Below, piece by piece: positions 22,151 through 26,542 of a stretch of 52,274 nt of DNA. Position 1 is the stretch's first letter, and every line of letters starts with the position of its first letter. The notes beneath the pieces are model-generated. The model made no database searches. It saw only the letters and a program-made list of their open reading frames with translations, and had not been told where the DNA came from. The position numbers and the translations under genes are program-made. Source of the DNA: an uncultured Myxococcales bacterium (lineage in GTDB: Bacteria > Myxococcota_A > Polyangia > Polyangiales > Polyangiaceae); NCBI GenBank assembly GCA_937902985.1, contig CALFNG010000029.1:1-52274 (forward strand), given 5' to 3'.

Positions 22151-22217
22151 GGGACCGATCGCGCGCTCCGCCATCACCTCGCGGCAGCCATCGCTTGACG
22201 TCGCGAAATCAAGGGCG

Positions 22218-22235
22218 GTCAACTTTTTTGTTGAC
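22218..22235. repeat. Inverted repeat GTCAAC-T6-GTTGAC at the H1-like promoter
   Basis: Perfect six-base arms flank a run of six T. The right arm overlaps the -35 element of the H1-like promoter, so a bound protein would block or recruit RNA polymerase. The T-run is unusual in this GC-rich DNA and may also bend the site. Confidence 0.6.
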
Positions 22236-22259
22236 AGGTAACGTACGTGACCATATACG
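22231..22259 (+). promoter_or_regulatory. Sigma-70 promoter for the H1-like gene
   Basis: TTGACA (22231-22236), a 17-base spacer and TATACG (22254-22259). It is the strongest promoter match found in the window. Transcription would begin near 22266, about 30 bases before ATG 22297. Confidence 0.78.
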
Positions 22260-22296
22260 TCATCTCAGATCCAACCCCACCTTTAGGAGGACGACC

Positions 22297-22593
22297 ATGG
22301 CAGCGAAGAAGGGTGCGAAGAAGGCAGCCAAAAAAGGCGGCAAGAAGACGAAGACCACGAAGAAGGCAGCCAAGACGGCGAAGAAGCCCGCAAAGCGAAA
22401 AGCTGCAAAAAAGCCAGCTAAGCGGGCAGCCGCCAGAAAGCCCGTGAAAAGGGCGGCGCCTCGATCCGCAGCGAAGAAGACTCCCGCGGCGGCGTCCAAA
22501 GGCGCTCCGAAGGCCGCTCCGCCGGCCGGCGTGCCGTCACTGCTGGGCGGTACTCCGACGTCGAGCCACGGTGTCGACGACGGAGAAGAGTAG
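22297..22593 (+). CDS. Histone H1-like Lys/Ala/Pro-rich DNA-binding protein
   Basis: This 98-residue protein is made of KKAAKK, KKPAKR and RKPVKR-type repeats to about residue 75, then ends in an acidic tail (HGVDDGEE). The composition matches the C-terminal domain of eukaryotic H1 and bacterial H1-like nucleoproteins, which bind DNA without sequence specificity and compact chromatin. There is no globular domain. The start is fixed by AGGAGG seven bases upstream, one of the best ribosome-binding sites here. The near-consensus promoter suggests strong expression. Codon use is less GC-biased than its neighbours because of many AAG/AAA codons. Confidence 0.9.
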   Translation: MAAKKGAKKAAKKGGKKTKTTKKAAKTAKKPAKRKAAKKPAKRAAARKPVKRAAPRSAAKKTPAAASKGAPKAAPPAGVPSLLGGTPTSSHGVDDGEE

Positions 22594-22725: not shown

Positions 22726-24336
22726 TCAATCGCCCAGATAGAGCTTCAGAGCCTCCGCCGCCGCGCGTCGATCGAACGGCGTCGTAGCGAGCTCGTCTCT
22801 CCGGGAGATAGCCTCGAACAGCTCGGTCAAGAAGGTCCTGAACCGCTCGGCTTCGGTGACCGCAGCCTCGAGCCGGGTCGGGTCGAGGAGATCGGCCTCC
22901 GTGAGGCTCGCCATCGCGCCCAAGAACGCGTCCACGTGCGGATAGTCGGCCGCGCGCAAGAGCGGATACCCCATGGCCCGGAAGTAGGCCATGAACTCGC
23001 GCGCGAACGTGAGCGGGGATCCCCCGAGCCAGCGCTCCTGCCCGAGTTCCTTCACCGATCGCGCCTTCAGCGCGAACGCACGCACGATCTGGGCGAACAT
23101 CCACACGTCTCTGCGCAGGCGTTCGCTCAACGCCCGGCGTGCCGACTCGTCGTCGAAGACGCCGCGAGCATCGAGCCGCGCCCCCAGGGAGCGGCCCAGG
23201 AACATGACCGCGTGCTGCAATGCGGGTCGCAAATTGGCCGTGAGGCTACCCACCGCGGCTCTAAGGTCGTCGAGCGAAGGAGAAGAATCCAGCGCCGGAA
23301 AGTCGCGCTCGAAGGCTCGGCGCATTTCGAGGCGGAGGCTGGCGGCCACACCCTCCAGCGTGGCCTTGATGTCGCGGAGCTCGTGGCCACGGGCCAGAAG
23401 CCGTTCGTAGTCCACCGCGATCTCGATGGCCGACGTGCGAAACACGTCGTCTTCGAAGCCGTTCGCGAGCAGCGGTCCTGCGCGCCGGCGAAGGTAGCCT
23501 GACAGCGCTCGCGCATCGGAGCGAAGCACGCTGAGCACCAGGTACACGAGCGATACGGATCGCTTCGGCGTCTCCGTCGCGTCGCGCGCGATGCTCTCCG
23601 CCAGTGCGATGTAGCGAAGCATCCGGAAGAGGGACAGCACCGTGAGCGCGACGAGGCGCCGGGCGTGCTCTCCCGAGACCCCTCGCATGAGTTCGAGCAT
23701 CTGAGAGTTCGTGATGCGGTCGAACTCGGGGCGGAACTCGAGGGCGTGCAGCGGGTTGAAGTACGTCGTCTGCGCGATCTCTCGCTGAGCCACCGCGAGG
23801 AGCGCGTAGAGCAGTCGAAACGGTACGCGCGGCAACCGGGTCAGCCCCGTGGTCACCTCGAGGAGATTCGTCATCGCCTGGCGAAGGACGAAGAGCGATT
23901 GCTCCGGCGCCTCTTGCGTCAGCGCTTCGCCCACGAGTCTCCTCCGCGCGCGATCGTCGGGGAGTACCGTTTCGAGATAGCGCTGAAAGACGAACGCGCG
24001 CTCACGCTCGGCGAGGAACGAGCGGCACGTGTGCACGATCCGAGTCAACGCTTCACGAACGATCGCCGCGTGTTCCCGAAAATCCTGTGCGACCACGGGG
24101 GTCTTCCGGGGCGGCCCGGGATGGTTGCGAGGATTGGAGAAGCACGCGAGGCCCTTCAACAGGATCTCGAGCTCGAAGAGGTGCTCGACCTTTCGGTCCA
24201 TCGTCATGCCCGCAAGCCAGGCCTCGCGCGCTTGCGCCTGTTCGCGGCGGAGACCGCGCGTGTCGCGCAAGAGGTCGTCGTACGCGTCTCGCTCTTCTGC
24301 GTTTCGGTCCGAGCCGGCGTTCACCACGCCTTGCAT
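22726..24336 (-). CDS. Conserved-looking hypothetical protein, 536 residues, helical
   Basis: No family was recognised. The protein looks soluble and almost entirely alpha-helical, with many Leu/Ala/Arg heptad-like stretches (for example RLVALTVLSLFRMLRYIALAE and ALSGYLRRRAGPLLANGF) and no signal peptide or obvious enzyme motif. Hydrophobic patches near FRLLYALLAVAQREI and SLVYLVLSVLR are too charged or short to be confident membrane spans. The start at 24336 is the first Met. It is divergent from the bufferin-like operon, sharing about 200 bases of upstream DNA; no link between them is proven. Codon pattern and amino-acid balance support a real gene. Confidence 0.7.
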   Translation of the reverse strand: MQGVVNAGSDRNAEERDAYDDLLRDTRGLRREQAQAREAWLAGMTMDRKVEHLFELEILLKGLACFSNPRNHPGPPRKTPVVAQDFREHAAIVREALTRIVHTCRSFLAERERAFVFQRYLETVLPDDRARRRLVGEALTQEAPEQSLFVLRQAMTNLLEVTTGLTRLPRVPFRLLYALLAVAQREIAQTTYFNPLHALEFRPEFDRITNSQMLELMRGVSGEHARRLVALTVLSLFRMLRYIALAESIARDATETPKRSVSLVYLVLSVLRSDARALSGYLRRRAGPLLANGFEDDVFRTSAIEIAVDYERLLARGHELRDIKATLEGVAASLRLEMRRAFERDFPALDSSPSLDDLRAAVGSLTANLRPALQHAVMFLGRSLGARLDARGVFDDESARRALSERLRRDVWMFAQIVRAFALKARSVKELGQERWLGGSPLTFAREFMAYFRAMGYPLLRAADYPHVDAFLGAMASLTEADLLDPTRLEAAVTEAERFRTFLTELFEAISRRDELATTPFDRRAAAEALKLYLGD

Positions 24337-24539: not shown

Positions 24540-24782
24540 ATGAACCTTGCGAAGACTCTGGCAGTTTCGGCCGTCGCGGGAATGCTGATGGGCTCTGCGA
24601 TCGGGTGTGGCGGCGGAAACGGCGCGACCCCGGGCGCGGCGGATCCGTCGGCCGCGGGAGGCAAGGCCTCGTGCAGCGCGAATGCTGCGCCTGCAGGCAG
24701 CGGCAAGTCGTCGTGCAGCGCCTCCGCTGCTCCCGGCAAGTCGTCGTGCAGCGCCTCCGCGGCGCCTGCTCCGAAGTACTGA
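24540..24782 (+). CDS. Candidate bufferin-like RiPP precursor (Cys-repeat lipoprotein)
   Basis: This 80-residue protein has a signal peptide with lipobox SAIGC (Cys23) and a short Gly/Ala/Pro spacer. Three repeats follow: GKASCSANAAP (41-51), GKSSCSASAAP (55-65) and GKSSCSASAAP (66-76), ending APKY. Each repeat has one cysteine in a K-x-S-C-S context; there are no other cysteines. The last two repeats are 33-base near-identical DNA units. It is followed by a hairpin, then MNIO (BufB-like) and DUF2063 (BufC-like) genes, the layout of bufferin operons, in which Cys of secreted precursors are converted to copper-binding heterocycles. Known bufferins use EGKCG-type motifs, so this core differs. 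Modification and metal binding are inference. An AGGAG lies 12 bases before ATG. Confidence 0.8.
   Translation: MNLAKTLAVSAVAGMLMGSAIGCGGGNGATPGAADPSAAGGKASCSANAAPAGSGKSSCSASAAPGKSSCSASAAPAPKY
24702..24767 (+). repeat. 33-bp tandem repeat encoding the precursor core
   Basis: Two adjacent units, each encoding GKSSCSASAAP, differ only at a few third positions near their ends (GCTGCTCCC against GCGGCGCCT). A more diverged third unit lies upstream (about 24660-24692). Such near-identity suggests recent duplication of the modified core. Confidence 0.8.
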
Positions 24783-24790
24783 GCGTCGAG

Positions 24791-24824
24791 CGCCAGGTCG
24801 CGCCTCGGGCCGACCTGGCGTTTG
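24791..24824 (+). terminator. Perfect hairpin between precursor and MNIO gene
   Basis: A ten-base perfect stem CGCCAGGTCG / CGACCTGGCG with a ten-base loop, followed by TTTG, begins nine bases after the precursor stop. The short T-tract suggests a partial terminator: most transcripts would end after the precursor, with some reading through to the enzyme genes. Protection of the precursor mRNA 3' end is an alternative. Confidence 0.7.
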
Positions 24825-24845
24825 CATTTAAGGGAAACGCGTTCG

Positions 24846-25709
24846 ATGGGATATCGAGAACGCCACGCGATCCCGGATCTAGGCGTCGGGGTCGGACTGC
24901 GAAGCGCGCACATCGTCCACGTGTTGCGCGAGCGTCCAGCGATGGACTGGTTCGAGATCATCAGCGAAAATTTTTTCGCCGAGGGCGGCGTGGCGCGCGC
25001 ACACCTCGATGCGGCTCGAGCCCACTACCCACTGGTCCCTCATGGCGTTTCGCTGTCGATCGGGGGTACCGATTCGATCGATCGAGACCATCTGTCGAGG
25101 CTCCGAGCCTTGGTGCGTCGGGTCCGACCCCCCTGGTGCAGCGATCACTTGTGCTGGACCGGAGCGGCGGGGCTCGACGTGCACGATCTCCTCCCCATGC
25201 CGTACACGCGCGAGACGCTCGCGCACGTCGTCGAGCGGGTGCGGCGCGTGCAGGGCGAGCTCGAAACGCCATTCGCGCTCGAGAACGCCTCGTCGTACAT
25301 GGAGTATCGCGAGAGCACGATGACGGAACACCAGTTTCTCGCCGAGCTGGCTTACAGAGCTGACTGTGGGATTTTGCTCGACGTCAACAACGTGTTCGTC
25401 AGCGCCTACAATCACGGGTTCGACGCCAACGCGTACGTCGACGCGATTCCCGGCGATCGAGTCGTTCAAATGCATCTCGCGGGTCACACCGACAAGGGGA
25501 CGCACCTCCTCGATACGCACTCGGATCACGTGCGCGACCAAGTCTGGGAGCTCTATCGGCGCGCGATTGGACGCTGCGGCGCCGTGTCCACCCTAGTCGA
25601 ATGGGACGAGAACATCCCGACCTGGTCGGTCCTCGAGGCCGAAGGGCGCGCCGCGCGAACGGTACGCGACGAGGTGCTGGGCGCGACCACGAAGGTGAGG
25701 CCATGCTAG
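24846..25709 (+). CDS. bufB: DUF692 multinuclear non-heme iron oxidase (BufB-like)
   Basis: MNIO enzymes are TIM-barrel, multi-iron oxidases that modify cysteine residues of RiPP precursors. The 287-residue protein starts with the family pattern GVGVGLRSAHIVHVL and DWFEIISENFF. Candidate iron ligands include His66 (PHGVSLSIG), Glu146 (ALENASS), Asp179 (LLDVNNVFVSAYNHGFD), His210 and His214 (MHLAGH), the DTHSDHV cluster (223-229) and Glu252 (LVEWDENIP). WCSDHLCW is also typical. ATG 24846 is used, with AAGGGA upstream. The stop overlaps the next gene by seven bases, so the two are coupled. Its substrate is most likely the adjacent Cys-repeat lipoprotein. Confidence 0.9.
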   Translation: MGYRERHAIPDLGVGVGLRSAHIVHVLRERPAMDWFEIISENFFAEGGVARAHLDAARAHYPLVPHGVSLSIGGTDSIDRDHLSRLRALVRRVRPPWCSDHLCWTGAAGLDVHDLLPMPYTRETLAHVVERVRRVQGELETPFALENASSYMEYRESTMTEHQFLAELAYRADCGILLDVNNVFVSAYNHGFDANAYVDAIPGDRVVQMHLAGHTDKGTHLLDTHSDHVRDQVWELYRRAIGRCGAVSTLVEWDENIPTWSVLEAEGRAARTVRDEVLGATTKVRPC

Positions 25710-26542
25710 ACCCTCGCGACGGTTCGCTAGCTGGCCTCCAGCGCTTCATCACCGACGCCGTTCGCAGCGGAACGGCGAGTCCTCTGGATCCTCACCGCGC
25801 GCAGGGTGCCGACCGCGTTCTCGTGGCCGGCAAGCACGGACTCTCGCCCGCCGATCGGCTCGAGATCTATCGCGAGCAGTTCTGGGTCCGCCACGTCTCG
25901 AACCTGATCGACGACTTTCCGACGTTGGGCTGGGTCATCGGCGCGCCCGCGTTTCGCGAAGTCGCGTCCGGCTATCTGACGGCGCACCCTCCACGCACCT
26001 GGAACCTGCAGCGCCTGGGCGCGGACCTCCCCGCGTTCATCGCGAGCGAGCCGCGATGGGCGAGCGACCGCCTCGCGGTCGACGCTTCTCGGCTCGACTG
26101 GGCCTTCATGGAAGCCTTCGACGCGCCCGACGCCAGTCCACTGGATCTCTCGCCGCTCGCGGGCGCCACCGAAGACGCGGTGACCACCGCGCGGCTGAGG
26201 TTCCATCCGTCGATGCGGCGGCTCGCGTTCCACCACCCCGTGCACGAGGTCCGCGAAGCCACGAAGCGCGGGGACGCGCGCGAACGCCCGGCTCCCCGCA
26301 ACGTTCGGGTCGTCGTCTGGCGAGACGCGACCTTTGCCGTCAGGGCCACGAGCGTCGAGCCCATCGCCTTCGATCTGCTGGCCGAGCTCTCTGCGGGCGC
26401 GCCTCTCGGTCAAGCGTGCGAGGCCGTAGCGAACGCGAACGGAGTCTCCACACCCGCGGGAGAACTCGGCGAGCGAGTTGGCGCGTGGTTCCAGGACTGG
26501 ACCGCGAACGGGTGGGTCAGCGAGGTCGCCATCGCCCGCTGA
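25703..26542 (+). CDS. bufC: DUF2063 partner protein (BufC/HvfC-like)
   Basis: The 279-residue protein has the N-terminal DUF2063 domain at about 8-110: LAGLQRFITDAVRSG, RLEIYREQFWVRHVSNLIDDFPTLGWVIG, FREVASGYLTAHPPRTWNL. A less conserved C-terminal domain follows, rich in short strands and ending in a winged-helix-like DLLAELSAGAPLGQACEAV. BufC-type proteins bind the precursor leader and present it to the MNIO. The start ATG 25703 lies inside the end of bufB and is preceded by GGTGAGG. No DoxX-type BufD follows; the next gene is convergent. Confidence 0.87.
   Translation: MLDPRDGSLAGLQRFITDAVRSGTASPLDPHRAQGADRVLVAGKHGLSPADRLEIYREQFWVRHVSNLIDDFPTLGWVIGAPAFREVASGYLTAHPPRTWNLQRLGADLPAFIASEPRWASDRLAVDASRLDWAFMEAFDAPDASPLDLSPLAGATEDAVTTARLRFHPSMRRLAFHHPVHEVREATKRGDARERPAPRNVRVVVWRDATFAVRATSVEPIAFDLLAELSAGAPLGQACEAVANANGVSTPAGELGERVGAWFQDWTANGWVSEVAIAR

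Follow-up and report, generated by a model that had tools for sequence, protein, structure and literature searches.

Few RiPPs are as numerous as the MNIO-modified metallophores. The bufferins proper are Buf1 (DUF2282) and Buf2 (6/12-Cys, Cys-Lys), and EGKCG is the defining motif of the oxazolin/fontiphorin group. What is made by an MNIO operon whose precursor carries none of these cores, and how did such a core arise? We address this question in a window of 52,274 nucleotides, the whole stretch of DNA analysed, from an uncultured Myxococcales bacterium. We propose that the product of a three-gene operon in this soil myxobacterium is, very probably, a metal-binding peptide of the known bufferin class that is modified by an enzyme and tethered to a membrane. 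Very probably, too, the metal-holding part of the peptide is a new short Ser-Cys-Ser repeat, with signal sequence and modifying enzyme unchanged relative to that class.

A bufferin-type operon with a precursor outside the named families

The operon runs from an 80-aa lipoprotein precursor through an MNIO enzyme to a DUF2063/RRE partner (Table 1). A first-pass annotation had described these genes, with three one-Cys GK[AS]SCSA repeats in the precursor and a seven-base overlap between enzyme and partner; open reading frames and sequence bear this out, the partner ATG lying at 25703 and the MNIO stop TAG at 25707-25709. The precursor ORF starts at an ATG with GAGGAG upstream, and its hydrophobic signal carries the lipobox AIG-C23. 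The bacterial lipoprotein pattern of n-region, hydrophobic stretch and lipobox Cys is found in the window and in its sister species (TAA-C23), and most family-level counterparts of the precursor also have a lipobox by pattern.

Table 1. Features of the operon
Feature	Position	Strand	Basis
Precursor lipoprotein (BufA-like), 80 aa, predicted lipid Cys23, core Cys45/59/70	24540..24782	+	sequence, sister conservation, dN/dS
Signal peptide + lipobox Cys (MNLAKTLAVSAVAGMLMGSAIG, then C), probable leader for enzyme complex	24540..24608	+	identity vs control; PMC13419390
Core repeat 1 GKASCSANAAP, residues 41-51	24660..24692	+	sequence
Core repeat 2 GKSSCSASAAP, residues 55-65	24702..24734	+	sequence
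Core repeat 3 GKSSCSASAAP, residues 66-76	24735..24767	+	sequence
Terminator-like hairpin (GCGCCAGGTCG...CCGACCTGGCG, then TTTGCATTT) between precursor and MNIO genes	24790..24829	+	folding MFE, z
MNIO enzyme, BufB equivalog, 287 aa	24846..25709	+	NF050167, PF05114, 3bww_A
Predicted catalytic-base Asp254 and neighbouring specificity residue Glu255	25605..25610	+	alignment to 3bww_A ERDFN; PMC13097082
MNIO partner PME type 1, DUF2063 + RRE-type C-terminal domain, 279 aa	25703..26542	+	Pfam

The enzyme scores 353.4 bits against the BufB maturase model NF050167 (equivalog cut-off 310), higher than against any other MNIO model, and 244.3 bits against HvfB, below that model's cut-off of 360. It also matches PF05114 (356.7 bits, cut-off 25; 8.6e-107) and aligns with solved DUF692 proteins, with 3bww_A (4.4e-47) through the motifs HGVSLS, SDHL, LDVNN, NHG, HLAGH, DTH and EWD. 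Because homologues align from 24846, the ATG there is most likely the start, not the TTG at 24822 of the mechanical ORF. In the partner, PF09836 (59.6 bits) and PF22106 (NGO1945_C, the RRE part; 32.8 bits) are both above cut-off, and these domains and its length agree with PME type 1 (DUF2063 plus an RRE-type domain, about 250-280 aa).

For the precursor, by comparison, NCBIfam and Pfam gave no family match. The BufA2 model NF050166, with six conserved Cys, is unmatched by a protein with three core Cys; Pfam offers only DUF6861 (E 0.35) rather than the DUF2282 match with four Cys that defines BufA1; and the repeats read GK[AS]SCSA rather than EGKCG. The earlier view of an MNIO/PME operon of bufferin type, whose exported, predicted lipid-anchored Cys precursor has a motif outside the named families, is thus upheld, although it had taken EGKCG as the bufferin precursor motif, which is the wrong group: the closest relatives of the locus are Cys-Lys BufA2-like lipoproteins. 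We found no convincing second copy of the precursor in its own genome (next best E 0.016) and no plasmid relatives.

A sister species (G143; loci L004/L011), with an enzyme 75% identical, has the identical gene order and keeps GGKASCSA...GGKSSCSA in two units, as the search for the motif beside DUF692/DUF2063 pairs proposed in the first-pass annotation would have it; related Cys-Ser, Cys-Asn and Cys-Gly lipoproteins are also present at orthologous loci. Between window and sister, precursor codons differ at 33 of 73 third positions and at 16 of 146 first and second positions (NG86 dN 0.12, dS 0.88). Given this and the retained motif, the precursor is a real gene under purifying selection. Repeats 2 and 3 are near-identical in DNA, which suggests that they come from a recent duplication.

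The locus is a positional counterpart of Cys-Lys lipo-bufferins

The comparison covered about 220 loci of the order and the phylum, which gave 206 distinct MNIOs with their upstream ORF; as precursor we took the best-scoring hydrophobic, Cys-bearing ORF upstream of the MNIO. Since this choice is heuristic and not all evident misfits were removed, some distant precursor calls will be wrong. Cys-bearing signal-peptide precursors lie upstream of most related MNIO genes; L030, L045, L049, L104, L107 and others have none recognisable by the heuristic, which may miss substrates. Within the same family, most precursors are lipoproteins starting like MN.GKTLA.SAV.GML.G..GCG, with mostly BufA2-like, Cys-Lys-rich cores such as CCKGKNECKGKSGCK...CAGQNECKGKGTSCP. 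Two Cys-Lys precursors of relatives score 28.6 and 37.2 bits against BufA2 NF050166, below its cut-off of 60.

In about 14 genomes with differing cores, the upstream region contains a divergently oriented gene for an OmpA-type lipoprotein, in most cases at a distance of 1-5 kb, and the window and the sister locus L004 have flanking Ppx/GppA, OmpA, TonB_C-like lipoprotein, kinase, HNH and CcmE genes in common. Based on the common neighbours and the similar signal peptide, we regard the window precursor as the positional counterpart of BufA2-like Cys-Lys lipo-bufferins. Two nearby ORFs lack a Pfam match: a 536-aa ORF divergent from the operon (22726-24336, minus strand), with no counterpart at that place in L004, and a small Lys/Ala-rich, histone-H1-like protein (AKKGAKKAAKKGG...; 22195-22593, plus strand). 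The copper binding put forward in the first-pass annotation finds no support at the locus itself, a Pfam scan of eight neighbouring ORFs having revealed no DoxX, copper or metal gene.

The genome has three MNIO and three DUF2063 genes, side by side on the same three contigs. The second MNIO locus encodes a Cys-Lys lipoprotein (CKGKNDCKGQGGCKT...) and the third a long lipoprotein in which GHASCSAAAC and GEASCGAGTC occur. Myxococcota also harbour a second, distant MNIO lineage (L003, on contig C352 of this genome, and L120, L124, L134, L136 and L139), whose lipoprotein-like precursors have GEASCSG/GEGSCSG repeats and a GEASCGAGSCGG end, with no named-family match found; in its enzymes, Gln often follows the catalytic Asp. 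Separately, a MAG titled Klebsiella pneumoniae (L009, CAMASI010000011.1) encodes a BufA2-like lipoprotein of myxobacterial type, whose 12 core cysteines are mostly Cys-Lys, together with an MNIO that shares 56% identity with that of the window; the Klebsiella label is probably wrong.

The core was replaced repeatedly behind a conserved signal peptide

In a tree of 47 MNIOs, evaluated with branch supports and AU tests, the window and its sister form a pair (100/99) nested in a clade of 17 rows (100/99) together with Cys-Lys, Cys-Asn and Cys-Gly types; further Cys-Ser types fall outside it. The AU test rejects one common origin for the non-Lys cores as a whole (p 3.7e-5) but does not reject a clade uniting the window pair with a neighbouring seven-row non-Lys clade (p 0.22). 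Short Ser-, Asn- or Gly-flanked Cys repeats took the place of the Cys-Lys core at least twice, and four times on the best tree. Loss of the Cys-Lys core is the likelier direction, since this elaborate core is common across the tree.

Across 10 genomes, the precursor signal peptide has a mean identity of 0.60. For the OmpA-type lipoprotein encoded nearby, which served as control, the value is 0.33, and the precursor signal peptide is the more conserved of the two in 45 of 45 (non-independent) pairs. The mature parts behave in the opposite way (0.40 for the precursor and 0.67 for the OmpA-type lipoprotein, in a closely overlapping earlier genome set). Such unusual conservation is as expected if the signal peptide doubles as a leader, and the enzyme complex probably recognises it as such. 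A leader function of Sec signal peptides in the making of bufferins and oxazolins is reported in PMC13419390 (citing Junger et al. 2026) and PMC12452194.

A residue beside the catalytic base may be paired with the core type

Asp254 and Glu255 of the enzyme, which we tabulated in relatives, are the equivalents of FonB D249 and F250, and Asp254 also of BufB2 D251. FonB Phe250, adjoining the catalytic base Asp249, sits at the substrate Lys and Gly; Cys-Lys enzymes have Asp at this position; and of the substitutions tried at the position following Cys, all but Ala blocked FonB (PMC13097082). Given this block, a Cys-Ser core should need a differently tuned enzyme. In the order-level set, Glu occurs in 9 of 9 Cys-Ser cases, and Asp or Ala in most Cys-Lys cases (Fisher 7e-8); the phylum-wide table has the same direction, Glu going with low-Lys cores (5e-7). 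However, Glu with Cys-Ser has only about three independent origins, and independent-pair tests, in which contrasts are few, fall short of significance (median p 0.5 and 0.125, respectively). We therefore dropped the covariation as proof of coevolution and keep the pairing as a hint, suggestive of a tie between Glu255 and the choice of a Cys-Ser core. Tentatively, and with considerable doubt, the lipo-bufferin core may be a swappable module behind a conserved leader, repeatedly changed from Cys-Lys to Cys-Ser, Cys-Asn or Cys-Gly, with the residue beside the catalytic base changing in step (Asp to Glu) and re-tuning substrate choice, possibly also product or metal preference.

A recurrent hairpin follows the precursor gene

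The hairpin after the precursor stop is strong, with an MFE of -36.5 (z -3.3). Among 112 comparable intergenic regions of relatives the median z is -3.2, with 71% below -2, and the hairpins often have a T run after them. The hairpin is probably a partial terminator or attenuator, which would set precursor above enzyme levels.

Relation to known systems

The nearest known system is Buf2/BufA2 (Buf_6/12Cys, NF050166), especially its lipoprotein subset, with the same precursor-MNIO-PME1 order, BufB equivalog and signal peptide with lipobox; positional orthologues of the window carry BufA2-like cores, whereas the window itself has three isolated Cys in GK[AS]SCSA in place of a 6-Cys Cys-Lys core. 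The EGKCG captophorins (oxazolins, fontiphorin, lipo-NedA) also have short one-Cys repeats and are in some cases lipidated, but the window motif differs at 4 of 5 positions, the enzyme is not HvfB-type, and Glu replaces Phe. TIGR04222 proteins resemble the precursor in being extracytoplasmic with a Ser/Gly-rich, low-complexity, Cys-bearing segment, yet they are multi-spanning membrane proteins with a PME-type 2 or no partner.

Lipid anchoring is not new in principle: lipo-NedA was shown to be lipidated, with -4 Da per motif (PMC12636315), and lipidation is predicted for 16% of Buf2 (PMC12452194). The latter paper also reports hundreds of unclassified signal-peptide Cys precursors beside MNIOs (Table S2), which, like that of the window, are small ORFs directly before a large-cluster MNIO, with 1-18 Cys. 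The novelty therefore lies in a lipo-bufferin of BufB type whose core consists of Cys-Ser repeats, and the papers that we read contain no description of such cores in Myxococcota.

Proposed pathway and alternatives

We propose, at a probability of about three in four, that this is a bufferin/captophorin-type RiPP operon making a membrane-anchored, thiooxazole-bearing, metal-binding lipopeptide. The DUF2063-RRE partner would bind the precursor via its signal peptide and present it to the MNIO in the cytoplasm, where the diiron enzyme would oxidise Cys45, Cys59 and Cys70 to 5-thiooxazoles (expected -4 Da each). After Sec export, the precursor would gain a lipid on Cys23 and be cleaved by signal peptidase II, leaving three thiooxazole groups on a flexible, membrane-anchored Ala/Ser/Pro tail that may bind soft metal ions, most likely copper by analogy with the family. 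The partial terminator would yield more peptide than enzyme. As a positional orthologue of BufA2-like lipo-bufferins, the locus would have swapped its core for Cys-Ser repeats and kept leader and enzymes. Every characterised MNIO-PME1 pair installs 5-thiooxazole (PMC13097082), and Cu binding holds for the bufferins and captophorins examined to date (PMC13097082, PMC12452194); the window agrees with the captophorin class (5-thiooxazole on Cys, Cu binding) in genetic architecture alone. Against this proposal, the core is unlike any tested substrate, and its three cysteines imply a low metal capacity.

It is quite possible, though at less than even odds, that the modified lipoprotein has a job other than copper buffering, such as a part in handling another metal, in redox or sulphur stress, or in the envelope. 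The eight scanned flanking ORFs without a copper or DoxX gene, the nearby haem-related CcmE gene, and the roles beyond copper proposed for MNIO peptides (PMC12452194) all point this way; the Cu binding of the tested peptides and the BufB identity of the enzyme argue for copper. A different product, owing to the Ser flanks, is improbable: Glu at the specificity site of all nine Cys-Ser cases would fit, but it arose independently only about three times, and the uniform 5-thiooxazole chemistry of characterised pairs speaks against it.

The loss of the Cys-Lys pattern and most cysteines from the core, together with the missing BufA2 match, might suggest a degenerate, unmodified relict of a BufA2-like lipoprotein. 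Purifying selection, with cysteines and GK[AS]SCSA kept in the sister, the intact enzyme and partner, and the repeated origin of similar cores beside intact enzymes make this very unlikely. Scarcely more credible, and if anything slightly less so, is membership in the EGKCG/oxazolin (HvfA) group with a drifted pentamer, as the first-pass annotation implied. The short one-Cys repeats in a low-complexity core are shared with that group, and K-A/S-S-C-S can be aligned with E-G-K-C-G; the BufB and HvfB scores, the Cys-Lys cores of the enzyme's tree neighbours, and Glu rather than Phe at the specificity site speak otherwise, and we reject this membership on the enzyme score and, as far as it goes, the present tree.

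Taken as a family, these orthologous operons, with one leader, one enzyme lineage and very different cores, are a natural experiment on how MNIOs choose their cysteines, and Glu255 offers a single-residue test of MNIO specificity. They also extend what is known of the bufferins by predicted lipid-anchored variants and by an intergenic hairpin that recurs among relatives.
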